From Nitrospirota bacterium (lineage in GTDB: Bacteria > Nitrospirota > Thermodesulfovibrionia > SZUA-242), in the NCBI GenBank assembly GCA_016212095.1, contig JACRHH010000015.1, positions 62,001-126,000 on the forward strand: DNA of 64,000 bases. Direction: 5' to 3'. The number at the start of each line of letters is the position of its first letter. Positions within the stretch are counted from its first letter, which is position 1. A model generated the notes under the pieces. It ran no database searches and had not been told where the DNA came from. It saw only the letters and a program-made list of their open reading frames with translations. The position numbers and the translations under genes are program-made. Shown here piece after piece: positions 7,189 through 58,194 of this stretch.

Positions 7189-8058
7189 ATGGACACCTCG
7201 GCGAACATAGAAAAGGGCGGCATCGGTTTCCGTCATTACGAAAGCGGACTTCTTGCGCTGCTTCTTGCCGCCGCATATTTTCAGGTGATCGCGCGGATGG
7301 TCGCCCACTGGGACGCCGATCCGAACTATTCGCACGGATTCATCGTTCCGTTTATTTCGGCTTATTTCTTGTGGCAGGAAAAAGATCGTTTAAGCGGTAT
7401 CCGGCAGGTTCCTTCCTCGCGCGGGCTTCTTGTGCTGGCCGCCGGGCTTCTGCTTTACATTCTGGCCTTTCTTGCGGCTGAACTTTTCACGATGCGTATT
7501 TCGCTGCTTGTCTGTCTTGCGGGGGTGATAATTATCTCTTACGGAATGGCGTTTTTCCGCGCAGTCTTGCTTCCGTACTGTTATCTCTACTTCATGATCC
7601 CGCTTCCTTATCTGTTGTACGACGCCGTGGCTTTCCCATTGAAACTATTTGTTGCAAAGTATTCCGTCATCACAATGCAACTGATAGGCATATCCGTTCT
7701 GCGCGAAGGCAACATCATAATCCTGCCCAATACCACGCTTGAGGTTGCCGACGCATGCAGCGGCATACGGTCGCTGATGTCATTGTTGGCGCTGGGCGTT
7801 GCCTATGCCCATTTTTCACAGCGAAAGCTTTCCAGAAAAATCATGCTCGTTGCCTCCACAATACCGATTGCAATATTCGCAAACTCCATACGGGTAATAG
7901 GCACGGGTGTTCTGGCTCGTTTCTATGGCGCGAAAGTTGCCGAGGGATTTTTCCATGAATTCGCGGGGCTTGTGATCTTTGCCGTCTCGATTGCGCTTCT
8001 TATCGGCATTGGCGCGCTGTTGAGCAGAACGAATGCCGATGAAGAACAGCTATCATGA
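7189..8058 (+). CDS. xrtA: exosortase (EpsH/XrtA type)
   Basis: Integral-membrane transpeptidase proposed to cleave PEP-CTERM sorting signals and attach or release substrates during export with exopolysaccharide. 289 residues, about eight membrane segments. The catalytic triad of the family is visible: Cys190 in ADACSGIRSL, Arg235 in ANSIRVIGTG, His256 in FFHEFAGL. Its TGA overlaps the ATG of the EpsI-like gene, and prsK/prsR and two PEP-CTERM substrates follow, so this is a full PEP-CTERM locus. The exact exosortase subtype (XrtA or another) is inferred from PrsK/PrsR. Confidence 0.94.
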   Translation: MDTSANIEKGGIGFRHYESGLLALLLAAAYFQVIARMVAHWDADPNYSHGFIVPFISAYFLWQEKDRLSGIRQVPSSRGLLVLAAGLLLYILAFLAAELFTMRISLLVCLAGVIIISYGMAFFRAVLLPYCYLYFMIPLPYLLYDAVAFPLKLFVAKYSVITMQLIGISVLREGNIIILPNTTLEVADACSGIRSLMSLLALGVAYAHFSQRKLSRKIMLVASTIPIAIFANSIRVIGTGVLARFYGAKVAEGFFHEFAGLVIFAVSIALLIGIGALLSRTNADEEQLS

Positions 8059-8717
8059 AACAGGCTGATCGGTCATCCCGCTGGAATCCCCAGGTTTTCC
8101 ATTATATTGCGGCGGCAATGATAGTGGCTGTCGGACTGTATCTGAACTTTTTCCTGAAGGTCGATTCGGTTCCGCCCAAAAAGCCGTTCTCGGCGTTTCC
8201 TCGCACCATCGGCGGATGGACAGCCGTGCGTGATTTCGATTTCGACAAGGAGACGATGGCCAACCTCCGGGTTGATGATTTCCTGTTCCGGTCGTACACA
8301 AACGGAGACCGCCAGATTCAGCTATACATCGGCTACTACCGCACCCAGCGCGAGGGCGCTCAGATTCATTCGCCGAAACACTGCCTGCCCGGCTCAGGCT
8401 GGTTTCAGATAAGCGAGGCAAAACGCAACTTTTCGCCGCCCGGAAGCGCAGCGTTTGAGATCGTTGAGGCTGTTTACCAGAAAGAGCGCGACCGGACGAT
8501 GTTTTTGTATTGGTACGACATGCATGGGCGCAAGATCACAAACGAGTACCTGATGAAGCTTGCAATGATATGGCATTCGATAGCCGACAACCGGAGCGAC
8601 GCCGCATTCATTCGGCTGTCTATCCCGGACAACGCAGACAATACGGAAAAGACCCTTCATCTAGGCGAGGAGTTTCTTGCTCAGGCTGTCCCGCAAATCG
8701 AGTCGTTTCTTCCCTGA
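8055..8717 (+). CDS. EpsI family protein (exosortase-associated)
   Basis: 220-residue EpsI-type protein (DUF3485), usually fused to or next to exosortase; role undefined, probably in exopolysaccharide/PEP-CTERM export. One N-terminal membrane segment (about 17-34) followed by a periplasmic domain with the hallmark GGWTAVRD and HSPKHCLPGSGW motifs. ATG overlaps the exosortase stop by 4 bp, so the two are translationally coupled. Confidence 0.9.
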   Translation: MKQADRSSRWNPQVFHYIAAAMIVAVGLYLNFFLKVDSVPPKKPFSAFPRTIGGWTAVRDFDFDKETMANLRVDDFLFRSYTNGDRQIQLYIGYYRTQREGAQIHSPKHCLPGSGWFQISEAKRNFSPPGSAAFEIVEAVYQKERDRTMFLYWYDMHGRKITNEYLMKLAMIWHSIADNRSDAAFIRLSIPDNADNTEKTLHLGEEFLAQAVPQIESFLP

Positions 8718-8778
8718 ACCGGCGGTCATTGCGCGCCTTTTCGGTCTGAACCTGCCGACCGGGGCATCATAGACCGGC

Positions 8779-10881
8779 ATGGATGTATTCGCCATAACAT
8801 CGATTACGCAGATCGTCTTGTGCGTCATCTTTGCGTTGTTCGTTCTCATCCGCAATTTCCGCTCTCTGGTGAACGTATCCTTCTCCATCGGCATGGTTTC
8901 GCTTGCGATTCTGGTGTTTGGCGACTACATGTCCATTCAGGACACATGGAATGCCATTGCGTGGAAGCGGCTTTCGATGATCGGCGAATCGCTGTTTCCG
9001 ATGTCGTGGCTTCTTTTTTCGTCCAGCTACGGATCATCTGAAAGTCGCTCAAGCCGGATATGGCCTGCGGTTCTTGCCATATCCGGAGCCGCCGGCCTGA
9101 CCTTGGCAGCGCTGTTCTATCCAACCTTCGGCTTCATGTATTCGCCGGAACTTATCACCGAGAAGATCATATACCTTAACGCTCCCGGATTTTATTTCTA
9201 CATGGTGCTTGTGATGGTTGCGATCATCGCTCTGGTGCGCCTTGAAAGTGTTCTCTGGCTTTCACGCGGCGGCACGAGGTGGAAGGTGAAATATGCGGTG
9301 GTCGGCGCTGCGGGGCTGCTCGGCATGTTCATCTACTATTACAGCCACTCGATCCTCTACCGCTCCATAGACATGAATCTGGCTGAGGTGAGAAACGCGG
9401 TTTTCCTTGTTTCAACCGTTCTGCTTGCCGCCGCTTTCGTCCGTCAGCAGTTTCTGGATGTGGATGTTTTTGTTTCGAGGCGAATGGTTTTCCGTTCGGC
9501 GTCGCTTCTGGTTGTGGGCATCTACTTCATATTCCTTGGGATAATCGGCGAGGGGATGCGTTATTTCGGCGAGGGCGTAAGCCGCCGGATCATGCTCTTT
9601 CTGGTTTTCGCCGGAACAATCGGCTTGAGCGTGCTGTTTCTTACCGAGGGTTTTCGCAGGCGGGCCAAGCGGTTCATAACCGACAATTTCTACCGCAACC
9701 GTTACGAATACAAGGATGAATGGATGAAATTCACCCGGAAACTTGCAACCGCGGTCGGCATGAGTGAACTCATCGATGTGATTCTGGAAATAATGATAGA
9801 AACCTTCGGCGTGCGCGCGGCATATTTCTGGTCTTGCGGCGCCGAGAACATGTCCGCCAGATGCGTTCGCTCAACATCGGGTTTCACCGCCCCCACATTT
9901 GAGGTCAAGGCGGAAAGCCCGCTTATGTGCAGAATGGCATCGGGCCTGATATACGACCGGCGAGCGCCGGACAATGATATCGAAGCAGCGCACGGCAATG
10001 ATCTGTCAGTTATCGAAGCCGGGATCGTGATACCGGTATGCACAGCCGACCGGCTTCTCGGCTTTGTGGTGCTGGGCGGGAGCATTGCCGGAGCTTCGTA
10101 TGACGACGAGGATTGCGAGCTTATGCTCACATTCTCGCGGCAGGGCGCGTATTCCATCGAGCGCATGTCGCTTTCTGAAGCGTTGACAGCCGCCCGTGAG
10201 ATGGAGGCGATGGGCAAGGTTGCTTCTTTTGTGATGCACGACCTGAAAAACATGACCACATCGATGTCGATGCTGCTTGAGAACGCCGAGCATTTTATCG
10301 GGCACCCGGATTTTCAGCGCGACATGCTGGGAACAATTCGAAGCCTCGTGGATCGGATGTCGAGCGTCATGCGCAAGCTGTCGCATCTGAGAGAACAGCA
10401 GGATGTGCGCATGAGATCGGAACGCTTGAGCGTTATTGTTCATGAGGTCATACTGACGCTGTCGATTCCGCGCGAAATCGAGCTTGTATTTCAGGAGCAC
10501 CAGGATCCTCCGGTGCCTTGCGACAGGGAGCAGATGAAAAAAGTTCTGGTAAACCTTATTATTAACGCGGTCGAGGCCATGAAGCAGAAAGGCTCAGGGC
10601 GCATGACCGTCGATGTTTCCCAGGCCGGAAGCGAGGTCTGCGCGTCTGTAAGCGATACGGGCTGCGGCATGTCTCACGATTTCATCGAGCGGGAACTGTT
10701 CAGGCCTTTTCACACGACCAAGAGCGGCGGGCTTGGTATCGGGCTATACCATTGCCGGTCTATTGTTGAATCGCACGGTGGGCGGTTTGCGGTTGAAAGC
10801 GTCATGGGCGAGGGCTCAAAATTCAGCATCTATCTTCCGATAAAAGGAAATAGCCGAAACGTTAATAAAGAGGGGTTATGA
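8779..10881 (+). CDS. prsK: PEP-CTERM system histidine kinase PrsK
   Basis: Membrane sensor kinase that marks exosortase systems. 700 residues: an N-terminal multi-helix region (residues about 1-285), a GAF-like domain (about 320-470, LMLTFSRQGAYSIER at its end), then the dimerisation/phosphoacceptor helix with HDLKN (His487) and a HATPase_c domain (NLIINAVEAM, DTGCGM, GLGIGLYHCRSIVE). Overlaps prsR by 4 bp. Likely phosphorylates PrsR. Confidence 0.94.
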   Translation: MDVFAITSITQIVLCVIFALFVLIRNFRSLVNVSFSIGMVSLAILVFGDYMSIQDTWNAIAWKRLSMIGESLFPMSWLLFSSSYGSSESRSSRIWPAVLAISGAAGLTLAALFYPTFGFMYSPELITEKIIYLNAPGFYFYMVLVMVAIIALVRLESVLWLSRGGTRWKVKYAVVGAAGLLGMFIYYYSHSILYRSIDMNLAEVRNAVFLVSTVLLAAAFVRQQFLDVDVFVSRRMVFRSASLLVVGIYFIFLGIIGEGMRYFGEGVSRRIMLFLVFAGTIGLSVLFLTEGFRRRAKRFITDNFYRNRYEYKDEWMKFTRKLATAVGMSELIDVILEIMIETFGVRAAYFWSCGAENMSARCVRSTSGFTAPTFEVKAESPLMCRMASGLIYDRRAPDNDIEAAHGNDLSVIEAGIVIPVCTADRLLGFVVLGGSIAGASYDDEDCELMLTFSRQGAYSIERMSLSEALTAAREMEAMGKVASFVMHDLKNMTTSMSMLLENAEHFIGHPDFQRDMLGTIRSLVDRMSSVMRKLSHLREQQDVRMRSERLSVIVHEVILTLSIPREIELVFQEHQDPPVPCDREQMKKVLVNLIINAVEAMKQKGSGRMTVDVSQAGSEVCASVSDTGCGMSHDFIERELFRPFHTTKSGGLGIGLYHCRSIVESHGGRFAVESVMGEGSKFSIYLPIKGNSRNVNKEGL

Positions 10882-12248
10882 GGAAACTTCTAATAGTTGA
10901 AGACGATGTCGGCATACAGACACAGCTCAAGTGGGGGTTGGCCGGCAACTGGAGCGTATCGGTATCCGGAGCGCGTCAGGAGGCGGTTGACGCCGTCAAG
11001 GCTGACGCTCCTGATGTCGTGATCCTTGATCTTGGACTTCCCCCGCACGAAGACGGTGCAACAGAGGGGCTTGCCTGCCTGAAGGAGATGCTTGCGATTT
11101 CCCCTCACACAAAAATAATCGTCGTGACCGGAAACGAGGAGCGCGCGAATGCGCTGGAGGCCATCGGTCTTGGCGCCTACGATTTCTATCAGAAGCCTGT
11201 TGACATGACCGTGCTCAAGATTATCCTGCAAAGGGCATTTCATGTTTCGGAACTGGAGAGGGAGCACGAACGCCTTAAAAGGCATCTTGCCGAAAGCAGC
11301 ACGTTTGAGGACATGCTTGGGTATTGCTCAGGAATGCAGGAGGTTTTTGCCGCCATCAAAAAGGTGGCGGGAACCGATGCGACTGTTTTAATTACCGGAG
11401 AGTCTGGAACCGGAAAAGAGCTTGTCGCGCGCGCCTTGCATAAGCGCAGTTCCCGCAAGGATGGCCCGATGATTGCAATAAATTGCGGAGGCATTCCCGA
11501 TACGCTTATTGAATCGGAGCTTTTCGGATACGAAAAGGGTGCGTTCACCGATGCCAAGGCTCGCAAGATCGGACTTATTGAAAAGGCATCCGGCGGCACG
11601 CTTTTTCTTGATGAAATAGGCGAGCTGCCGATTCAGCTTCAGGTCAAACTGCTTCGTTTCATTCAGGAGCGCAAGATTCAGCGTGTCGGCGGAACAGTGC
11701 CGGTTGATGTCGATGTACGCATCATCGCCGCAACAAACGTCGATCTCGAAAAGGCGGTGCAGGTTGGCAAGTTCAGGGAAGACCTTTTTTTCCGTGTAAG
11801 CGTGATCTGCCTTCATCTGCCGCCGCTAAGGGAGCGAGGCGACGATGTTCTCATTCTGGCGCGCAATTTTCTGGCTAAATTCGGACGCCTGCATCACAAG
11901 AAGTTCAAGGGGCTTACGCCGAAAGCTTTAGTCGCCATGCAATCATACGAATGGCCGGGCAATGTGCGGGAACTGGAAAACAGAATGCAGCGCGCTGTAA
12001 TCATGTCCAGTGAACCGGTCATAGACTGGAATGATCTGTCACTGCCAGGAGTTCAAACCGGTGAATGGGACGACTCGGAACCAAAAACCCTTCGTGAAGC
12101 CCGCGCTATTGCAGAGATGTCATTGATCAGGAAAAGCCTGATGATTCACGGCGGGAACATAAGCAAGGCCGCGGAGGATATGGAAATAAGCCGCCCCACG
12201 CTTCACGATTTGATCAAGAAGTACGAGATGAATGTGTCGGGACACTGA
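10878..12248 (+). CDS. prsR: PEP-CTERM sigma-54 response regulator PrsR
   Basis: NtrC-type activator, 456 residues: receiver domain with phosphoacceptor Asp51 (VVILDLGLPP), AAA+ domain with Walker [10 protein letters not shown] (about 172-180), the sigma-54 contact loop as GAFTDA (221-226, a variant of GAFTGA), Walker B GGTLFLDEIGE, and a C-terminal Fis-type helix-turn-helix (GNISKAAEDMEISRPTLHDLIKKY). Coupled to prsK. Two good sigma-54 promoters sit upstream of the PEP-CTERM genes nearby, which are its probable targets. Confidence 0.95.
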   Translation: MRKLLIVEDDVGIQTQLKWGLAGNWSVSVSGARQEAVDAVKADAPDVVILDLGLPPHEDGATEGLACLKEMLAISPHTKIIVVTGNEERANALEAIGLGAYDFYQKPVDMTVLKIILQRAFHVSELEREHERLKRHLAESSTFEDMLGYCSGMQEVFAAIKKVAGTDATVLITGESGTGKELVARALHKRSSRKDGPMIAINCGGIPDTLIESELFGYEKGAFTDAKARKIGLIEKASGGTLFLDEIGELPIQLQVKLLRFIQERKIQRVGGTVPVDVDVRIIAATNVDLEKAVQVGKFREDLFFRVSVICLHLPPLRERGDDVLILARNFLAKFGRLHHKKFKGLTPKALVAMQSYEWPGNVRELENRMQRAVIMSSEPVIDWNDLSLPGVQTGEWDDSEPKTLREARAIAEMSLIRKSLMIHGGNISKAAEDMEISRPTLHDLIKKYEMNVSGH

Positions 12249-12261
12249 CATGAGATAACGA

Positions 12262-12522
12262 TTATTGCATCTTCAACGGGTATCTTTCCGGATGCTCAAT
12301 AATCTCATCGGATAGATCAATATCCAGTTCCGGCCAGTAGTAATGACCGGCTGCCGGTTCCTCCACATTTAATATTTTGCCTACGGGCGCATCCCTGAAC
12401 CAGGGGAAATCCTCGTATGGCATGAACATCTCACTGTCTCCGGCCAAAAGCCACACACCATGATTCGAGATGTTCGTTACTTCAACTGTACCGGCGTCGT
12501 TCCCAAGCGTGTTTAAACTCAT
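12262..12522 (-). CDS. DUF2442 domain protein (putative antitoxin-like partner)
   Basis: 86-residue DUF2442 protein: GVWLLAGDSEMFMPYEDFPWFRDAP followed by WPELDIDLSDEIIEHPERYP, the usual family ending. Start at 12522 (MSLNTL), which overlaps the upstream DUF4160 gene by 41 bp. DUF4160/DUF2442 pairs are often listed as toxin-antitoxin-like, without firm biochemistry as far as I know. A second pair is at 19316-19868. Confidence 0.85.
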   Translation of the reverse strand: MSLNTLGNDAGTVEVTNISNHGVWLLAGDSEMFMPYEDFPWFRDAPVGKILNVEEPAAGHYYWPELDIDLSDEIIEHPERYPLKMQ

Positions 12523-12721
12523 TGCAGTGCTCCTCGATAATAGCCTTGATCTCATTCAACCTGACAGCCGACAAACCATGGCTTTTTGCCAACGACAGAT
12601 CTGGCTCTAACCAGTACTTTGCTTCGCCATCGGAACAAACAACATGAACATGCATTCTGCTTTCCTCGCGTGAAAAGAAAAAGAAACGATAGCCTTTCAC
12701 TTTCAACAACGTCGGACTCAT
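12482..12721 (-). CDS. DUF4160 domain protein
   Basis: 79 residues. Family pattern is MSPTLLKVKGYRFFFFSREESRMHVHV, with the xHxHV segment, and WLEPDLSLAKSHGLSAVRLNEI, then a helical tail. ATG at 12721 chosen because it gives the standard family N-terminus; ribosome site weak. First gene of a DUF4160-DUF2442 pair, reading against prsR. Confidence 0.85.
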   Translation of the reverse strand: MSPTLLKVKGYRFFFFSREESRMHVHVVCSDGEAKYWLEPDLSLAKSHGLSAVRLNEIKAIIEEHCNEFKHAWERRRYS

Positions 12722-12803
12722 CTGTCTATCAATCCCATTTTTGTGCAAACCTCGTGTTAGATATTAGCTCAAACACTTCCCTGTGAAAAGGATTTTTACT
12801 CAT

Positions 12804-12831
12804 AAAAAAAGCGGCGCTTTCGCGCCGCTTT
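12804..12831 (-). terminator. rho-independent terminator of the first PEP-CTERM gene
   Basis: Perfect 10-bp stem (12808-12817 with 12822-12831, AAAGCGGCGC) and 4-nt loop. On the minus strand it is followed by a run of seven T. It lies 40 bp downstream of the PEP-CTERM stop codon at 12872. Confidence 0.9.
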
Positions 12832-12871
12832 GAACTGTTCGGGTAAACCCCTCGTTACGTCTTTATTTCTC

Positions 12872-13552
12872 TTAGGCCTTTTTGCGGCGGCTGTAGAACG
12901 CTACGCCAACCAGACCTGAGCCGAGAAGAAGCATTGTGCCGGGTTCCGGCACTGGCTGTGTATGCGTATCCAGGCTGGTCGATTCAAACACCTGGGTGCC
13001 AGGATGATGAATGTCGATAATTGTGAGCAATGTGATCGGTGACAAACCAAACAATGTGTTGTTTGTTCCGCTTCCGGAGAACGGGCTCGAAACGATTGCG
13101 CCTGAATCTACGATCAGATTGCCGTTTGCATAGGTTCTGACCCTGACGGTTCCATCTGTTGTAATGCCACCGTAAGTGGAAATAAACCCGTCAGCCGCCA
13201 GCGGGCCTGCAACCGAATCAGATAATGTTATCTGAAGGTCGTTAGGTATGCCAACTGCAGGCATCTGAATTGTGAACTGCGCATTGTTAAGATGCAACTG
13301 CGGCAATGTGGAAGTTCCGATTGCCGGCGAGCCGACGCCCAGCGCCAAGCTTATATCCCAATTTCCAATCGACTGGGAATACTGGACTGTACCGGCAATA
13401 GCGCTTTCGTCGCCTGCGCCTCCGTCTGTGATGCTTAGGGATGTAGTGCCGTCAAACAGTGTAAGCACGGGAACCGCCTCAGCCTTCACCGATATGCCGA
13501 GCGCCATAACGAACGCCATGGCAACCATTCCAATTTTCTTCATGTTTTTCAT
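12872..13552 (-). CDS. PEP-CTERM sorting domain protein (substrate 1)
   Basis: 226-residue secreted protein with signal peptide (MKNMKKIGMVAMAFVMALG, cleaved near KAEA), a Ser/Thr/Gly-rich beta-type body, and the C-terminal sorting signal PVPEPGTMLLLGSGLVGVAF plus basic tail YSRRKKA, the exosortase recognition element. Start at 13552 has AAAGGAGGTG upstream. Paralogous to the next gene: both bodies begin with an L-x-DG-x-T-x-S-[IV]-x-D pattern and contain A-x-PVPEPGT endings. Preceded by a sigma-54 promoter (13664-13679) and a conserved upstream element. Function of the body unknown. Confidence 0.93.
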   Translation of the reverse strand: MKNMKKIGMVAMAFVMALGISVKAEAVPVLTLFDGTTSLSITDGGAGDESAIAGTVQYSQSIGNWDISLALGVGSPAIGTSTLPQLHLNNAQFTIQMPAVGIPNDLQITLSDSVAGPLAADGFISTYGGITTDGTVRVRTYANGNLIVDSGAIVSSPFSGSGTNNTLFGLSPITLLTIIDIHHPGTQVFESTSLDTHTQPVPEPGTMLLLGSGLVGVAFYSRRKKA

Positions 13553-13663
13553 GATTTCACCTCCTTTCGTACAAGATTGAAGCTTGCTGTTAAGTGTTGT
13601 TTCCATTTTAATCCTCCCTCCGAAGAGTTCATTCCAAAGGCTTATTGCCGTTGCATAACTGAA

Positions 13664-13679
13664 AGCAAACAGCGTGCCA
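13664..13679 (-). promoter_or_regulatory. sigma-54 promoter for PEP-CTERM gene 1
   Basis: Minus strand reads TGGCACGCTGTTTGCT: a full match to the -24/-12 consensus TGGCACG-N4-TTGCW, with GG and GC separated by 10 nt. Expected transcript start near 13653, about 100 nt before the ATG at 13552. Confidence 0.85.
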
Positions 13680-13729
13680 TTACGATAACACGTTGAATAT
13701 GCAACGAATACAACTCTCTACCGTATTTG

Positions 13730-13777
13730 AACCTGTAATTTATGTAAGGTTTATCGACAGTGCGCTTGGGGGTGTCG
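13730..13777. promoter_or_regulatory. candidate PrsR upstream activating element, copy 1
   Basis: On the plus strand: ACCTG at 13731, GTAAGGTTT at 13744, CGACAG at 13755, CTTGG at 13765 and TGTC at 13773. The same words in the same order occur at 14860-14905, upstream of the second PEP-CTERM gene. Includes inverted repeats AACCT/AGGTT (13730-13734, 13747-13751) and CGACA/TGTCG. It sits about 80-125 bp upstream of the predicted start, a normal place for an NtrC-type enhancer. Confidence 0.6.
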
Positions 13778-13918
13778 GTTAACATGTGGCCACCGGCAAT
13801 GCCTGCCCCCCTGTTACTGCGTGTCATGATTGTGATTAAAAGGCGTGTTGCAGGCTAAAACAGATGAAAAGATGCGATCTGCCTTGAGGAAGCAGCGTAA
13901 AATAAATCGACACATGGT

Positions 13919-13949
13919 GCGGAAAGCGGTTTTTTGAGCCGCTTTCCGC
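13919..13949. terminator. stem-loop after PEP-CTERM gene 2
   Basis: 11-bp perfect stem (13919-13929 with 13939-13949, GCGGAAAGCGG) and 9-nt loop, 25 bp downstream of the stop at 13974. There is no T run on the minus strand, so it may stabilise the 3' end rather than terminate. Confidence 0.6.
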
Positions 13950-13973
13950 TATTCAATGCATTGATGTCTCTGC

Positions 13974-14705
13974 CTACGCCTTTCTGCGTCTGCCGTAGAG
14001 AATCAATCCAACAACCCCGGTTCCAAGCAACATGATCGTTCCGGGTTCAGGAACCGGCTCGATAATGGCATCGAAGCTGGACACCTTGGTGCCGACTCCA
14101 TGATTGATTGTCATTACACTGGTAATGGAGAACGGGCTGCCGGTTCCAAGCTGTCCGGCGGTTGTTCCTGCAAAGGCGCCTCCGCTGAATGCGCCGAGGC
14201 TGCCTATCAGGCTGGTCTGAGCGAACAGGGTATTGCCTGTATCGTAGTAGGCATCCCAACTCACAGATCCACCTGTAACGCCGCCAATTGCCATCGACAC
14301 AAGATTGGAGCCAACTGCAAGCGGCCCATAATTGACTTCAGAGAACGCAATGGTTATTGTGCCGCCATTGCCGATTGAAACCTGCACTGAATTGACATCC
14401 ATGGTCGGCATGACAGGCGAGCCAAGTACCGGCATGGTCAGGCCAGTCGTGACACCGATCATGAAGTTGCCGATAGGGGTGAGTGACGTGACAGCGCCAA
14501 CCACAGGATTCGTATCCCCGGCGGCGTTATCGGCAATTGAAACAGTCGTGCTGCCGTCGGAAATCTGTAATGTCGCAATCGCATGAACATTGGCCGACAT
14601 GCCTGTGAGCAACATTGCCAAGGCAAACGCAATTGCTATCGCTGCTTTCAATCCATTGGCATTGCGCGGCATTGCGCTCACCCTGTTTTCAATCTGTGTT
14701 TTCAT
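13974..14705 (-). CDS. PEP-CTERM sorting domain protein (substrate 2)
   Basis: 243-residue secreted protein: N-terminal signal segment (about 20-45, AAIAIAFALAMLLTG), Gly/Ser/Thr-rich body beginning ATLQISDGSTTVSI, and sorting signal PVPEPGTIMLLGTGVVGLIL with tail YGRRRKA. Start at 14705 follows CAAGGAGGTAGCAAG. Paralogue of the previous gene. Own sigma-54 promoter at 14791-14806. The body is unassigned; probably a surface or exported matrix protein. Confidence 0.93.
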   Translation of the reverse strand: MKTQIENRVSAMPRNANGLKAAIAIAFALAMLLTGMSANVHAIATLQISDGSTTVSIADNAAGDTNPVVGAVTSLTPIGNFMIGVTTGLTMPVLGSPVMPTMDVNSVQVSIGNGGTITIAFSEVNYGPLAVGSNLVSMAIGGVTGGSVSWDAYYDTGNTLFAQTSLIGSLGAFSGGAFAGTTAGQLGTGSPFSITSVMTINHGVGTKVSSFDAIIEPVPEPGTIMLLGTGVVGLILYGRRRKA

Positions 14706-14790
14706 CTTGCTACCTCCTTGCTGATGACTGTTGCCAGCCATCGCTCATGATCCGATTCAGTCTTAGCCTTGGCCGTGGCGAGCATGTACG

Positions 14791-47593: not shown

Positions 47594-47950
47594 CTACTGC
47601 TCCGCCTTGTCCAGCAGGAAGTTAAGCAGTCCCACAACGATCTTCACATCAGGCTTGGTCATGTTCGAGTCCGGCTTTCTGAGCATCTTGACTCCGTATG
47701 CCGCCGTAGCCCCCTTGTCGAAAATGCCTCCGGATATCGGCGCAACACCTGTCTGGATCGCAACAATGGCTCTCTCCAGAGAGTGGCATTTCCTGCATTT
47801 CATCCGCATCAGATCGTAGGCAGATTTCATGTTCGGGGGGAAGCCGGCAGTGTCGATCTCAATGTTGTCGCCGCCGCCGATGACCTTGATGCCCGCGTAG
47901 GCAGGCATGGACAGAACCAGAACAATCAGTATTGCGATTAATTGTTTCAT
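47594..47950 (-). CDS. small monoheme c-type cytochrome
   Basis: 118 residues: signal peptide (1-19, ending AYA), heme-binding CRKCH at 52-56 (MRMKCRKCHSLERAI), and C-terminal SNMTKPDVKIVVGLLNFL that looks like the last helix of a class I-type fold. Candidate axial Met in MLRKPDSNM. Start at 47950 (MKQLIA). Lies 16 bp after the cytochrome-porin gene; probably its periplasmic electron partner. Confidence 0.85.
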   Translation of the reverse strand: MKQLIAILIVLVLSMPAYAGIKVIGGGDNIEIDTAGFPPNMKSAYDLMRMKCRKCHSLERAIVAIQTGVAPISGGIFDKGATAAYGVKMLRKPDSNMTKPDVKIVVGLLNFLLDKAEQ

Positions 47951-47966
47951 TTCGATTCCCAACCTC

Positions 47967-49163
47967 CTAGAACGCGTACACAATGGCTCCGACCACCTTG
48001 TCTTCCCTGGCGGAATCCACTTTCTTGTGAACATATTCCGCAACAACCTTTACGTTCTGCAGAACATTGTGGGCAACCGACGGCGCAAGAACAGTTGTTT
48101 CCTTTGCGCCGTTGTCAAGCGATTCATAGCGGGCAACGACCATTGTGTCGGAACCGATCAGATAGCTTGCCTGAGCCAGCCATGAACTTGATTCGAGCGA
48201 TTTGTTGTCGCCATTGGGGTTGTCGTCATTGCCCTTCGTGAATCCGAGGCGAAAACGCAGTGTTCTATACATGACCTCGGCTTCGATGCCTGCCTTGCTG
48301 AAATCGTTTGCGACCACCTGCGAAGAGCCGCTGTACCAGAATCCGCCAACGGTGATTGTGAGAAAGTCCATGATGCTGTCGCTGTCGAGGCTCACTTCCG
48401 GCTCATTGCCCTCATAGTCGGTTCCGGATAGCCTTGCCTGGGCATGAATGTACCAGTCGTTGCTGTCGCGGGTCGGATTGCCGTCGGCGTCGTCCGTATT
48501 GCTGTTGAGAGCGCCTGCGGCCGCAAAGATTCGCGATCCGAAAATCTTGCTCACCTCAACGCCTTCACGCGCGCTGTTGATCTTGAACGGGCTTTTCCCG
48601 ACCTTCATCTGGATGTAGTCCATCTTCTCAAGCGCCGCGCGATTGTTCGATTTCCAGAGGTTGAGAACCGGCTTGAAATTTCCGGCTCGCACGAACACCG
48701 GAACATTGAGCGGATTCCTGAACTTGATATAAATCTCACCGGTGGCTCCGTCTGAAAAGTTGTATTCGGCGAACCATCCGGCCTTGTCCTGAAACGATCC
48801 GGCAGTGAACATCTCGAACTCGGATGTCCCGAACAGGTTCAATCTGGGCGTGCTGTCCTTGTTGTACACGGCTTCATGGGTTCCCATGAAGCTTATCGGA
48901 ATCTCGGAGGGGATGCCGGACAGAAACAGGGCCTCGTTCTTCTGCTGAACCTGTTTGGGCGACTTCTTGCCCGGCCAGATGAAGCCGTTCTTCTCGAACG
49001 CCTCGCCGAATTCATTGCGCTCAGGGAAAATGGTGTGACAGGTCTTGCACTCGGTGTTGTACTGTCTGGCAAACGCCGGAATTGCCTGCGCTTCTCCCGG
49101 CGCGACAACCTGAAACGCAAGTACGGCGATGACTGCTGCAACTGCTCCTGCAATTTTCTTCAT
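47967..49163 (-). CDS. outer-membrane cytochrome-porin fusion (Cyc2-like architecture)
   Basis: 398 residues. Signal peptide cleaved after AQA27; a single heme motif CKTCH (39-43) in IPAFARQYNTECKTCHTIFPERNEFGEAFEKNGF; then about 330 residues of alternating beta strands (FTAGSFQDKAGWFAEYNFSDGATGEIYIKF, VFVRAGNFKPVLN, LRFRLGFTKG) ending in aromatic AIVYAF, typical of outer-membrane barrels. The N-terminal signature and layout match the fused cytochrome-porins (Cyc2/Cyt572-like) used for electron transfer across the outer membrane. Only 15 bp after the chemoreceptor gene. Confidence 0.85.
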   Translation of the reverse strand: MKKIAGAVAAVIAVLAFQVVAPGEAQAIPAFARQYNTECKTCHTIFPERNEFGEAFEKNGFIWPGKKSPKQVQQKNEALFLSGIPSEIPISFMGTHEAVYNKDSTPRLNLFGTSEFEMFTAGSFQDKAGWFAEYNFSDGATGEIYIKFRNPLNVPVFVRAGNFKPVLNLWKSNNRAALEKMDYIQMKVGKSPFKINSAREGVEVSKIFGSRIFAAAGALNSNTDDADGNPTRDSNDWYIHAQARLSGTDYEGNEPEVSLDSDSIMDFLTITVGGFWYSGSSQVVANDFSKAGIEAEVMYRTLRFRLGFTKGNDDNPNGDNKSLESSSWLAQASYLIGSDTMVVARYESLDNGAKETTVLAPSVAHNVLQNVKVVAEYVHKKVDSAREDKVVGAIVYAF

Positions 49164-49178
49164 GATGTTCCTCCTGTG

Positions 49179-51404
49179 CTAGATATTCTCAGCGGACTCG
49201 TTGAGCTTGAATTTGGCCATCTCCCTGCGCAAGGCGGATATCTGGGCAAGCAGATTCGCCACGGCGGAATCCATCACCTTCGCGGAATCTATGTTCATGG
49301 CGGCGGAATCCTGAATCTTGCCAACAGCTCCGATAATGCGTTCGGAACCCGTGATCTGCCCTTCGCACTCTTCCCTGATACGGCTGATCATGTTAAGGAT
49401 GTTTTCCGTTGAGGACATGACAAAGGCTCCGGCCTCCTTCTGTTCATGCGTGGCATTGCTGACCTGCCACGAAAGCTCCTTCATGCGCTCGACTGCAAGC
49501 ATGATGAAATCGTTGCTTCGTCCCTGCTCCCCGGTGGCGGTGGCAATTCTGGCAACCATGTCGGACACCTGCTCCATGGCGTTACGGATAAGCCTGATTT
49601 CAGCCGCCTGCTCGGCGGCGGCAGCCGCAATGACGCCAACCTGGGAAGTTGCCCTTGTCGCGCTTTCCACGATTTTACCCAGTGCGTCGCCCGATCTGCG
49701 CGACAGGTTCTCGCCGTCGGCGATGCTCTCGTCGGCCAGCCTTATCGCGATTACAGCCCGCGCGGTTTCGTCCTGAACCCCCTTGATGATGCGTGATATT
49801 TCATGTGTCGAACCGATTGTCTTGTCGGCCAGCTTCTTGATTTCATCCGCCACGACCGCGAATCCCTTGCCGTGTTCGCCGGCCTGTGCCGCGATAATGG
49901 CCGCATTGAGAGCAAGCAGGTTCGTTTGCGATGCGACTGCATTGATTACCGTCAGGATCTCGCCTATGCTTCTGCTCTTGACGGAGAGGCTTTCGATCAC
50001 CTCGGCAGTAACCCGCGAGGATTCCCTGATGCCGTAAATTCCGCTGATCGTCGCCTCGACAGCCTCCCTGCCTGCTTCGGCTGCCAGCCGCACGTCTTCC
50101 GAGAGCGCTGTCGTTTCATGGGCATTGGCCTCGATCTGAGCAATTGACGTATCCATCTGCGCCACCGAGTCGGCTGTGCCGGAGGCCGCCATCATCAGGC
50201 TATGCACGCTTCCGTCGATCTGCCTCACGGCTCCAGCCATTTGGGTAATGGATGTGCTCACGTCATCGACCGCGCCGGCCAGCGCCTCCATGCTGTTGGC
50301 CACGCTGTCGCTGCTGGAGATCATTTCATGGATGGACGACGCGCTCTCGGCTGCCGACTTCGAAAGGCTGCCGACGCTGCCGGCCACGCTGTGAACCGAG
50401 GCTCCTATCTGTGTCACGGCGGCTGAAGTCTCGTTCACCTCTCCTGCCTGAATACCCGCAACGTCAACAACCCCGCGGGAAGCGGCGGACAGCCTGCCGG
50501 AAACATCGCCGAGCACATCGGTGGTGGTGTTGAGCTTCCTGATCATGTCGGACAGCTTTTCAACCATGGTGTTGTAGTATCCGCTCAGAATGCCGAGCTC
50601 ATCGTTGGAATCGATGATTACCTTGGCGGTAAGGTCGCCTGTCGCGCCGTGGTTAAGCGCGTTGACCATGCGGTTGGTGCGCCTGACGATGCTTCGCGTT
50701 GTAAGCGTTCCAAGCGCTCCGGCAAGGAGAACCGAAACCGCAATCACCACCGAAAAGGCTATGAGCGTTCCGCGCTTCTGAATTTCTGTTTCCTTGCCGG
50801 CCTGGGCAACCTCCTTGCCTATTGCAACAAGCAGATCGTCGAGCGCCGTCTTTGCGTCTTCGTTTGCGTTTGCAAGGTCATCCAGCACCAGCTTTGCAAG
50901 GTTGTCCTCCTCCGCCTCGTAACGGATATAATCCTTCAGGATGGAATTGAATCGATGGACAACAATCTGTTCCTTTTTTGATATGAACTCCTCGGCTGCC
51001 GTGTCGAATTCATCCCATTTCGCAAGCGCGTCCTTCGTGCGTTTTTCTATTATTCCGCCGGGTTCGGCGGGACGAATTCCAAGCTTCGGGTTTCCCTTTA
51101 TCAGTATCAGGCCGTTCTTGCGCAGGATGTCGCGTTTCATGCGGTAGTCGCCCGCGAACTCCTCGAACTGTTCCCTGTTGGCGCGCACCGTCACCACTTT
51201 AAGAATGTCGGCGTATGCAGCCTTCTGTGTTATCTCCATGAGCATGATGAGCTTTTGCTGGCTGATCAGATTGTTCAGCACTTCGCTCATCCGCGCGGTG
51301 AGCCGGGTCATGTTCCAGACGCCGTAGGCGCCCGTAACGACAACCAGTATCGCCATTATCATGAACGAGCTTACAAGTTTCTGTTTTATCGATAAGTTTT
51401 TCAC
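49179..51404 (-). CDS. methyl-accepting chemotaxis protein
   Basis: 741 residues. First membrane segment 10-30, periplasmic four-helix-type sensor domain (about 31-210), second membrane segment ([24 protein letters not shown], about 207-230), HAMP ([31 protein letters not shown]), then a long signalling coiled coil with the hairpin tip [40 protein letters not shown]. The usual NAAIEAARAGE reads [11 protein letters not shown]. No heme or PAS motif. First gene of the minus-strand set with the two cytochromes. Confidence 0.95.
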
Positions 51405-51536
51405 ATGAGCCGCTTAAGCACGTCCAGGTTGCTGCCGTAGCCGTTGCGGTGGACTAGGCACGGTTGCCAACACCGCAAAAGCGTTTACAATAGTGCTAAT
51501 CGTCACTAGACACTTCTAACTTGAGGAGGTTTCGCA

Positions 51537-52541
51537 ATGGTAACAGGCTCTTTTGGAAGCAGGAAACTTGTTGCAGGAATCCTGTCCGTTCTTTTTACCC
51601 TTTCCGGGTGCGGAGGCGGCGGAGGCAGCTCAACCGGCAGCGGCACTACCCCAACCGCAACCATCACTCAGGAGAACGCGGCAACGCTGGCGGCAACCGC
51701 AATAGTTGGTTCCGAGGCCGTCTACACAAGTTCGAGCGCCGGCAACGACACAACTGCAAAGGCAACGGTAAGCAACGCAAATACCCGCAGGTTCAATCTG
51801 GCCGACTTCTCGCGGATGATGCTTGGCGAAATTGAACATTCTGCCGGCGGGCAGGTTTCGGGCAAGGCTGCGCCGAAGACCGGCGTTTGCTCATCCGGTT
51901 CGGCTGATGTCGGCTATACCGACACCGACGGTAACGGCCAGCAGTCCATCGGCGACACATTTACCGCCACATTCATATCGTGCAACATCGAGGGTGCGGT
52001 GATAAACGGCTCAATGTCCATCACTCTCACAAATGTTTCGATAGGGGGCGGCTCAAGCAGCATGTCCGCCACCATAAACCTCTCCAGCTTTACCGTAAGC
52101 GAAGGCGGCAATACCGTGTCGATGAACGGAGGGTATTCGTTCAGTTCCACGGTATCCTTGTCTCCGATGCAGGCCACCATTCATCTTTCCAGCTCGTCCC
52201 TGACGGTTGCCGTCAATTCAACTTCCACCACACTCAGCGATTTCAGCATGACTGCCACAGTGAACAACAGTTCATATTCCTATCAAACGAGCGGTGCGAT
52301 CAGCAGCACGGGGCTTGGCGGAATCATAGTCTTTCAGACAACAACGCCGTTTGTCGGGCCGGTCGGCTCAGGCGACGGATTCCCGACAAGCGGATCTCTC
52401 AAGGTCACCGGCGCGAACAACGCCTCGGTTACTATCACCGTCAGCGGAACCGTCGTTAACGTTGCCGCCGACATTAACGGAGACGGAACCAACGATTTCA
52501 GCACTAACACAACCTGGGACGCGCTTACGAGCGGTGTTTGA
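51537..52541 (+). CDS. Ser/Thr/Gly-rich surface lipoprotein
   Basis: 334 residues; signal peptide with lipobox LSGC followed by a Gly/Ser tether (CGGGGGSSTGSGTT), then a beta-rich body dominated by S, T, G, N (SITLTNVSIGGGSSSMSATINLSSFTV, STTLSDFSMTATVNNSSYSYQTSG). An EF-hand-like DTDGNGQQSIGD and a final DINGDGTNDFST loop suggest calcium binding. ATG after TTGAGGAGGTTTCGCA. The next regulator gene starts 9 bp later. Confidence 0.75.
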   Translation: MVTGSFGSRKLVAGILSVLFTLSGCGGGGGSSTGSGTTPTATITQENAATLAATAIVGSEAVYTSSSAGNDTTAKATVSNANTRRFNLADFSRMMLGEIEHSAGGQVSGKAAPKTGVCSSGSADVGYTDTDGNGQQSIGDTFTATFISCNIEGAVINGSMSITLTNVSIGGGSSSMSATINLSSFTVSEGGNTVSMNGGYSFSSTVSLSPMQATIHLSSSSLTVAVNSTSTTLSDFSMTATVNNSSYSYQTSGAISSTGLGGIIVFQTTTPFVGPVGSGDGFPTSGSLKVTGANNASVTITVSGTVVNVAADINGDGTNDFSTNTTWDALTSGV

Positions 52542-57561: not shown

Positions 57562-58194
57562 TTGATCAGGAAAATTCTCATGGCCGCTGCGGCGGTTCTA
57601 ACTTTCAGTTCCGTATCATTCGCGGCAGGCGCTCACGACGGGCTTGTCTGCACAGGTTGTCACGATATTCACTATGCAAAGGATTCATTCATATTCGCGG
57701 TCGCCGCCAACAAGGTGGCCACGTCTCCGTCAACGAAGAAGAATTACAGCGGCGTAACGGCTCTTTGCCTTGGCTGTCATGCCGATGCCGAGCACGGCGG
57801 CATGGGCATCAAGCCTATCTCCCAGCACACCACCCACCCGTTCGGCACGCCGCCAAATCCGAAGGTGGCCCGTGTTCCGCGCGCTCTTCTGAGGGACAGC
57901 AAGATGGACTGCGTGAGCTGTCATGATCCGCATCCTTCAAACCCGAACTATCGTTATCTGAGGACTGACACAAAGGGCGGAAGCGAAATGCAGTATTTCT
58001 GCGCCATGTGTCATCCGGCCAAGGCCGATGCCTCTGTTTCGAACCAGGCGATGAAGACGCTGAAGGTGTTCACGAGCATGGACGAGAGCAAGGGCCCGAC
58101 AACATCCACTGTTGGCGAGCTTACGTCCGCTCCCGATGCCGGCCCGGCTGAGACGGCTCCGGCGGCTGCTCCAGCGGCTGCTCCGAAGAAGTAA
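57562..58194 (+). CDS. tetraheme c-type cytochrome (exported)
   Basis: 210 residues from a TTG at 57562 placed 8 nt after AAGGAGGG. Signal peptide 1-21 (ending SFAA), four CXXCH motifs at 30-34 (CTGCH), 69-73 (CLGCH), 117-121 (CVSCH) and 147-151 (CAMCH), extra histidines for axial ligation (HDIH, HTTHPF, HDPH), doubled-CXXCH-like spacing. Ala/Pro-rich tail APAAAPAAAPKK. Periplasmic electron carrier, matching the other cytochrome genes at 47594-49163. Confidence 0.93.
   Translation: MIRKILMAAAAVLTFSSVSFAAGAHDGLVCTGCHDIHYAKDSFIFAVAANKVATSPSTKKNYSGVTALCLGCHADAEHGGMGIKPISQHTTHPFGTPPNPKVARVPRALLRDSKMDCVSCHDPHPSNPNYRYLRTDTKGGSEMQYFCAMCHPAKADASVSNQAMKTLKVFTSMDESKGPTTSTVGELTSAPDAGPAETAPAAAPAAAPKK

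Follow-up and report, generated by a model that had tools for sequence, protein, structure and literature searches.

Conserved linkage of a chemoreceptor family with a Cyc2-related cytochrome-porin and a small monohaem cytochrome in a Nitrospirota bacterium and in Desulfuromonadia

Introduction

The closest described relatives of the cytochrome-porin considered here are the Cyc2 proteins, among them Cyc2 of PV-1, Cyc2 of A. ferrooxidans, and Cyt572 of Leptospirillum, which are defined by the motif AXPXFAR[Q/K][T/Y] together with a PXL motif and a single CXXCH (PMC8406198). A signal peptide, the single CXXCH, a length of about 400 amino acids, the AXPXFAR[Q/K][T/Y] motif at the same spacing, and a small cytochrome partner are common to this family (PMC8406198) and to the locus described below. 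Cyc2 proteins also have a 16-stranded OprO/OprP-like barrel, and an OprO/P-like barrel is predicted for the protein considered here. Outer-membrane conduits composed of a barrel and c-type cytochromes are also known as porin–cytochrome complexes of the OmcB/ExtABCD/MtrCAB type; these, however, are made of a separate multihaem protein and a separate barrel, whereas the protein considered here would combine the barrel and one haem in one polypeptide.

On the signaling side, a chemosensory system has been tied to extracellular electron transfer in Geobacter sulfurreducens. The electrode-sensing network consists of the chemoreceptor (MCP) EsnA, the CheW protein EsnB, the CheA protein EsnC, and the diguanylate cyclase EsnD; strains with any one of the four deleted grow less well on electrodes, whereas their growth on Fe(III) oxide is not impaired, and the genes encoding CheW (GSU2220), an ATPase (GSU2221), and CheA (GSU2222) are neighbors (PMC5585712). 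A similar CheA–ATPase–CheW set accompanies the receptor class studied here in its own genome, but EsnA has a GAF sensor (PMC5585712), whereas our MCP has a different, periplasmic sensor and is encoded beside conduit genes. Haem-binding MCPs of Geobacter, Gsu0582 and Gsu0935, likewise link an MCP to periplasmic redox sensing (PMC2577667); in contrast, the MCP considered here has no CXXCH, so that any redox input would need a partner.

Results

The window, that is, the whole 64,000-nucleotide stretch of Nitrospirota DNA analyzed, contains at 47594–51404, on the minus strand, three genes in the order MCP, cytochrome-porin, monohaem cytochrome. All three open reading frames of the original prediction were found in place, with the gaps of 15 and 16 bp that it had listed. 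The first gene (49179–51404, GTG start) encodes a 741-aa MCP with the Pfam domains MCPsignal and HAMP; the second (47967–49163, ATG start), a cytochrome-porin of 398 aa with a signal peptide, a haem domain, and a predicted OprO/P-like barrel; the third (47594–47950, ATG start), a small, probably periplasmic monohaem cytochrome c of 118 aa with the haem motif CRKCH. An alternative TTG start of the latter, at 48046, was set aside, as it would make this gene overlap the porin gene. Shine–Dalgarno-like sequences (AGGAGG/TAGGAGG) lie in the 15-bp gap before the porin gene (49164–49178) and in the 16-bp gap before the small cytochrome gene (47951–47966). The intergenic region of 132 bp (51405–51536), separating the MCP gene from a divergent lipoprotein-like gene, is the presumed promoter region of the set. 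Promoter and terminator scans of the set were at background, with no more promoter sites than in shuffled sequence, and an Rfam search of the window and ten homologous loci yielded no riboswitch, e.g., of the c-di-GMP or cGAMP types. The GC content of the set is unremarkable (0.554 vs 0.558).

Several other features of the window were recorded. On the far side of the 132-bp intergenic region, the gene divergent from that of the MCP (51537–52541, plus strand) encodes a 334-aa lipoprotein-like protein with no Pfam match; a small four-haem cytochrome of the c7/c3 type (Pfam Paired_CXXCH_1, Cytochrome_C7) is encoded at 57562–58194 (plus strand); and the region 7189–14741, judging by its appearance, is likely an exosortase/PEP-CTERM region, with EpsH-like, PrsK-like, and PrsR-like genes and two possible PEP-CTERM substrates.

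In the window alone, the position of an MCP gene next to any given gene is unremarkable because the genome encodes at least 17 MCPs (the chance would be a few per cent), and thus it is the linkage across genomes that counts as evidence. We considered 277 genomes of Desulfuromonadia, the class of Geothermobacter, with neighborhoods of 3 kb around the small cytochrome gene; the porin and the MCP sensor were also each sought separately in these genomes, which removes the bias of seeding by the small cytochrome. Geothermobacter hydrogeniphilus HR-1 has all three genes, with identities of 44–45% for the porin, 58% for the small cytochrome, and 41% for the MCP (737 positions, full length). Within 3 kb of a small cytochrome gene lie 74 out of 76 porin copies and 44 out of 60 copies of the MCP sensor family, and all three genes occur together in 36 of the 277 genomes. 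The gaps between the MCP and cytochrome genes are mostly 5–20 bp or below 100 bp. Genomes with the MCP family nearly always encode the small cytochrome as well (52 out of 55; Fisher 8e-27, with kinship of the genomes ignored).

The order of the genes differs: in Geothermobacter, the MCP gene is divergent from the porin–cytochrome pair, in other Desulfuromonadia the order is porin–cytochrome–MCP, and in the window, MCP–porin–cytochrome. That the genes stay linked in at least three different orders speaks for a functional relationship rather than for inherited order.

The association of the MCP with the conduit is strong but not exclusive. About half of the porin–cytochrome pairs (39 out of 75) have no MCP gene nearby, and at eight loci the MCP and small cytochrome genes are paired with no porin detected, which in one case (G575) is due to a contig break. 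Sixteen of the 60 MCP-family copies are away from the small cytochrome, three adjoining an octahaem cytochrome gene and the rest mostly housekeeping genes; hence, the suggestion that these copies always stand beside cytochromes proved false. The three paralogous MCPs beside the octahaem cytochrome belong to the same sensor family (L128:5135–9007, L130:5185–9124, and L132:5124–9054), and in the first two of these loci a possible porin gene comes next. Additional small cytochromes were also seen, with a second copy about 4.6 kb away at one locus (L059) and five copies in one genome (G606).

Profile annotation of forty fetched neighborhoods revealed in most of them a cytochrome family with 9–12 (about ten) haems and a lipobox-like start. 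The genome of the window has no copy of this lipoprotein cytochrome.

Homologs of the small cytochrome are present in 93 of the 277 genomes of Desulfuromonadia and in 14 out of 395 in a wider sample of that phylum, while among 395 sampled genomes of the phylum of the window the window's own genome is the only one with this protein. This difference between one out of 395 and 93 out of 277 makes horizontal transfer of the set likely, and the transfer is probably old.

PccH (GSU3274) and the OmcJ region were considered as possible relations of the cluster. The literature search identified no G. sulfurreducens locus for the cluster, and we claim no locus tag. In the open-access literature, we found no paper describing the MCP–conduit linkage; each component is a variant of something already known, and it is the conserved pairing of receptor and conduit that appears to be new to the literature.

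According to the original prediction, the middle gene has a haem-binding N-terminus and a beta barrel ending in Phe, in the layout of Cyc2/Cyt572-type conduits. The haem domain is AIPAFARQY-NTE-CKTCH-TIFPERNEFG, with one CXXCH, which is invariant across the porin family, and the C-terminus is ...VYAF. Neither the window porin nor the small cytochrome, when searched singly against Pfam and NCBIfam, matched a family. The motif AXPXFAR[Q/K][T/Y] upstream of the single CXXCH is reproduced exactly in the window porin, and its 398 aa exceed the minimum of 365 residues for Cyc2, but there is no PXL about four residues after CXXCH: the window porin reads TIFPER, and the Geothermobacter one, TVFPER. 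In most orthologs the situation is reversed, as PXL is retained in 18 out of 20 family members and the FAR motif is relaxed, being present in two out of 20. Profile comparison shows the family to be homologous, from end to end, to Cyc2-like proteins found in the window's class (E 3e-29), two of which (L016 and L018) carry the full Cyc2 motif. In a tree with these proteins, rooted at the midpoint only, the window porin groups with porins of Desulfuromonadia (support 100/98), and this clade is apart from the FARQT group. Many diverse cytochrome-porins of the AXPXFAR/FARQT type, sometimes several per genome, were seen in the window's class (L013–L026).

We thus treat the porin family as a clade of its own, homologous to Cyc2-type fusions, and do not claim it as Cyc2 proper. 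The label of an iron oxidase is not justified, because the PXL half of the signature fails and the clade is separate; in addition, the window porin differs from the Cyc2 family in its linkage to an MCP. The Cyc2-type layout is supported by the haem domain, the barrel predicted for the family, and the full-length homology, but strict Cyc2 membership is not, and the porin would work as a Cyc2-type conduit.

The barrel is predicted mainly at the level of the family. The family profile has OprO as its only match among solved structures in PDB (E 0.0019), Pfam Porin_O_P matches eight out of 20 members, the siderophore porin model LbtU weakly matches five out of 20, and the family-averaged strand alternation has P 0.002–0.004. 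When the window porin is taken alone, its barrel is suggested less clearly, with non-significant strand alternation (P 0.26) and a pLDDT of 33 for the AlphaFold2 model built from a two-sequence alignment, which was used for no fold search. The predicted haem N-terminus and terminal Phe are thus seen directly, while the barrel between them is backed by the family but not by the single-protein tests.

The small cytochrome is the hub of the conserved cluster, and its role as the partner of the conduit, suggested in the original prediction, agrees with its place beside 74 out of 76 porin copies. It has the features of periplasmic c-type monohaem cytochromes, i.e., a signal peptide (as judged from the sequence), a single CXXCH (CRKCH), and a conserved candidate distal Met. 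Met48, Met89, and Met97 are invariant in the family alignment, the latter two across 18 sequences, and either Met89 or Met97 is a candidate distal haem ligand. Weak matches to Cytochrome_CBB3/Cytochrom_C were observed in members of the family. Nothing was concluded from a structure model (pLDDT 70), for which the best Z was 4.7 and cytochromes c were found among unrelated helical proteins.

The MCP contains MCPsignal (1.7e-37) and HAMP (2e-8), both above the curated Pfam cut-offs, and a weak 4HB_MCP_1 match. A periplasmic sensor of about 170 aa is followed by HAMP at 235–285 and the tip at 508/509; the arms, from the end of HAMP (about 286) to the tip and from the tip to the C-terminus, each span about 32 heptads, which corresponds to a length of the 64H type. 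Conserved residues of the sensor are Q49, K51, L55, M56, Y87, G104, N105, K107, G116, R122, and K144; there is no conserved Cys or His in the family and no haem motif (CXXCH) in the sensor.

The tip of the window MCP reads IIAAQAGE and that of the Geothermobacter ortholog NASIIAAQSGE, both deviating from the canonical NAAIEAARAGE, which is typical though not strictly defining. A survey of che and MCP genes in selected stretches of the own genome covered 17 MCPs, and the I[IL]AAQAGE tip was found in four of them, the window MCP and three others. These four have the longest arms (268–277 residues from TM2 to the tip, vs 153–239 in the remaining ones; C-terminal arm, 226–233), and one of them carries an added C-terminal binding-protein domain. 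In an own-genome MCP at L112:9867–12725 (plus strand), which has a sensor match of the 40H type (Mcp40H-20), the signaling domain is followed by a fused phosphonate-binding-protein domain, an unusual location for a domain that binds a substrate.

Two MCPs with the I[IL]AAQAGE tip are encoded in the cluster CheY–CheA–AAA ATPase–CheW–MCP–MCP (L112), which is not adjacent to the genes of the window, while MCPs with the canonical tip sit with other CheA-like genes. With CheA, AAA ATPase, CheW, and MCPs of the same class, this cluster has the Esn-type gene set, and its likeness to esn is one of gene set and order. Although flagellar rod-like genes occur in the genome, we regard an esn-like output as the likeliest for the window MCP, ahead of a flagellar one, because of the receptor class shared with the MCPs of this cluster, from which we infer the pairing. 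The original prediction interpreted the MCP and the conduit as taxis toward an external donor or acceptor. The association itself is conserved, but taxis is less certain, as the only che cluster seen for this receptor class is esn-like, and in Geobacter such a system acts in electrode growth and colonization rather than in swimming. Surface sensing is, in our opinion, as likely an output as flagellar taxis.

Discussion

Based on the observed gene content, gaps, homologies, linkage, and receptor class, we propose, as a somewhat probable explanation, that the three genes work together as a single module, in which an outer-membrane electron conduit is equipped with a chemoreceptor that signals via an esn-like system. 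The cytochrome-porin would reside in the outer membrane as a small barrel whose periplasmic opening is plugged by the haem domain, and would pass electrons between an outside partner and the periplasm. This partner could be a dissolved metal, a humic, or, in the Geobacter relatives, the surface lipoprotein with about ten haems, and the small monohaem cytochrome would serve as the periplasmic shuttle. The MCP would monitor how this path is operating, and the simplest means would be contact with the small cytochrome or binding of the conduit's substrate. Its signal would pass through the esn-like CheY–CheA–ATPase–CheW proteins and adjust how cells attach or move when an electron partner that they can use is close by. 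A more specific version, in which the small cytochrome docks on the MCP sensor as a redox messenger and reports the electron flow of the conduit to the chemosensory array, so that the receptor would sense "current" and not a chemical, seems unlikely to us.

The direction of the electron flow may be read in two ways: uptake is suggested by homology to Cyc2, and export by the multihaem protein that usually accompanies the cluster and by the carriers being Fe(III) reducers. Uptake would apply if the porin were a genuine Fe(II) oxidase of the Cyc2 type, paired with a periplasmic electron acceptor, the MCP driving flagellar taxis toward Fe(II). The exact AXPXFAR[Q/K][T/Y] motif, the full-length profile homology to Cyc2-like proteins, and flagellar rod-like genes in the genome (L121) agree with this, but the PXL half reads PER, the porin belongs to a separate clade with those of Desulfuromonadia, a class known above all for its Fe(III) reducers, the tip of the MCP is not of the canonical class, and no terminal-oxidase context is linked; hence, we consider such an oxidase distinctly unlikely. 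Export, with a respiratory conduit to external acceptors and the MCP guiding cells to them, is tentatively possible, given that the carriers are mostly Geobacter relatives, where the cluster is usually accompanied by the lipoprotein cytochrome with about ten haems, as in the porin–cytochrome conduits of metal reduction. However, this multihaem partner is absent from the window genome, and a single haem in a small barrel fits dissolved rather than solid partners, as has been argued previously (PMC8406198).

The remaining explanations separate the components of the module. The MCP could be simply co-regulated with the conduit, or carried along beside it, and sense an unrelated ligand; in favor of this are the sensor, which has no haem motif and no conserved Cys or His, and the 16 out of 60 copies away from the small cytochrome, most of them next to housekeeping genes. 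On the other hand, 44 out of 60 copies adjoin it, mostly at less than 100 bp and in at least three arrangements, and the MCP stays by the small cytochrome at the eight loci with no detected porin (including the contig break in G575), which makes this explanation rather unlikely. It is very unlikely that the cytochrome-porin is an uptake porin of the siderophore or phosphate type with a structural or ferric-reductase haem: despite the weak LbtU matches and the resemblance of the fold to OprO, a member of the phosphate porin family, the invariant CXXCH and the conserved partner cytochrome point to electron transfer.

The module with its own chemoreceptor, which we prefer, bears on how bacteria recognize electrodes, minerals, and partner cells, a largely open question, as the esn genes demonstrated the need for such signaling in Geobacter but not the receptor input. 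At the level of the family, our results call for caution, since not all AXPXFAR cytochrome-porins should be annotated as iron oxidases. Linkage by itself leaves the stimulus of the MCP to inference; nevertheless, a receptor family repeatedly encoded beside one conduit provides a concrete, testable sensor–conduit pair, and its carriers have relatives that are cultivated and genetically tractable. With the trio linked in dozens of Geobacter-type genomes, the sensor may be wired to one electrical contact of the cell with the outside.
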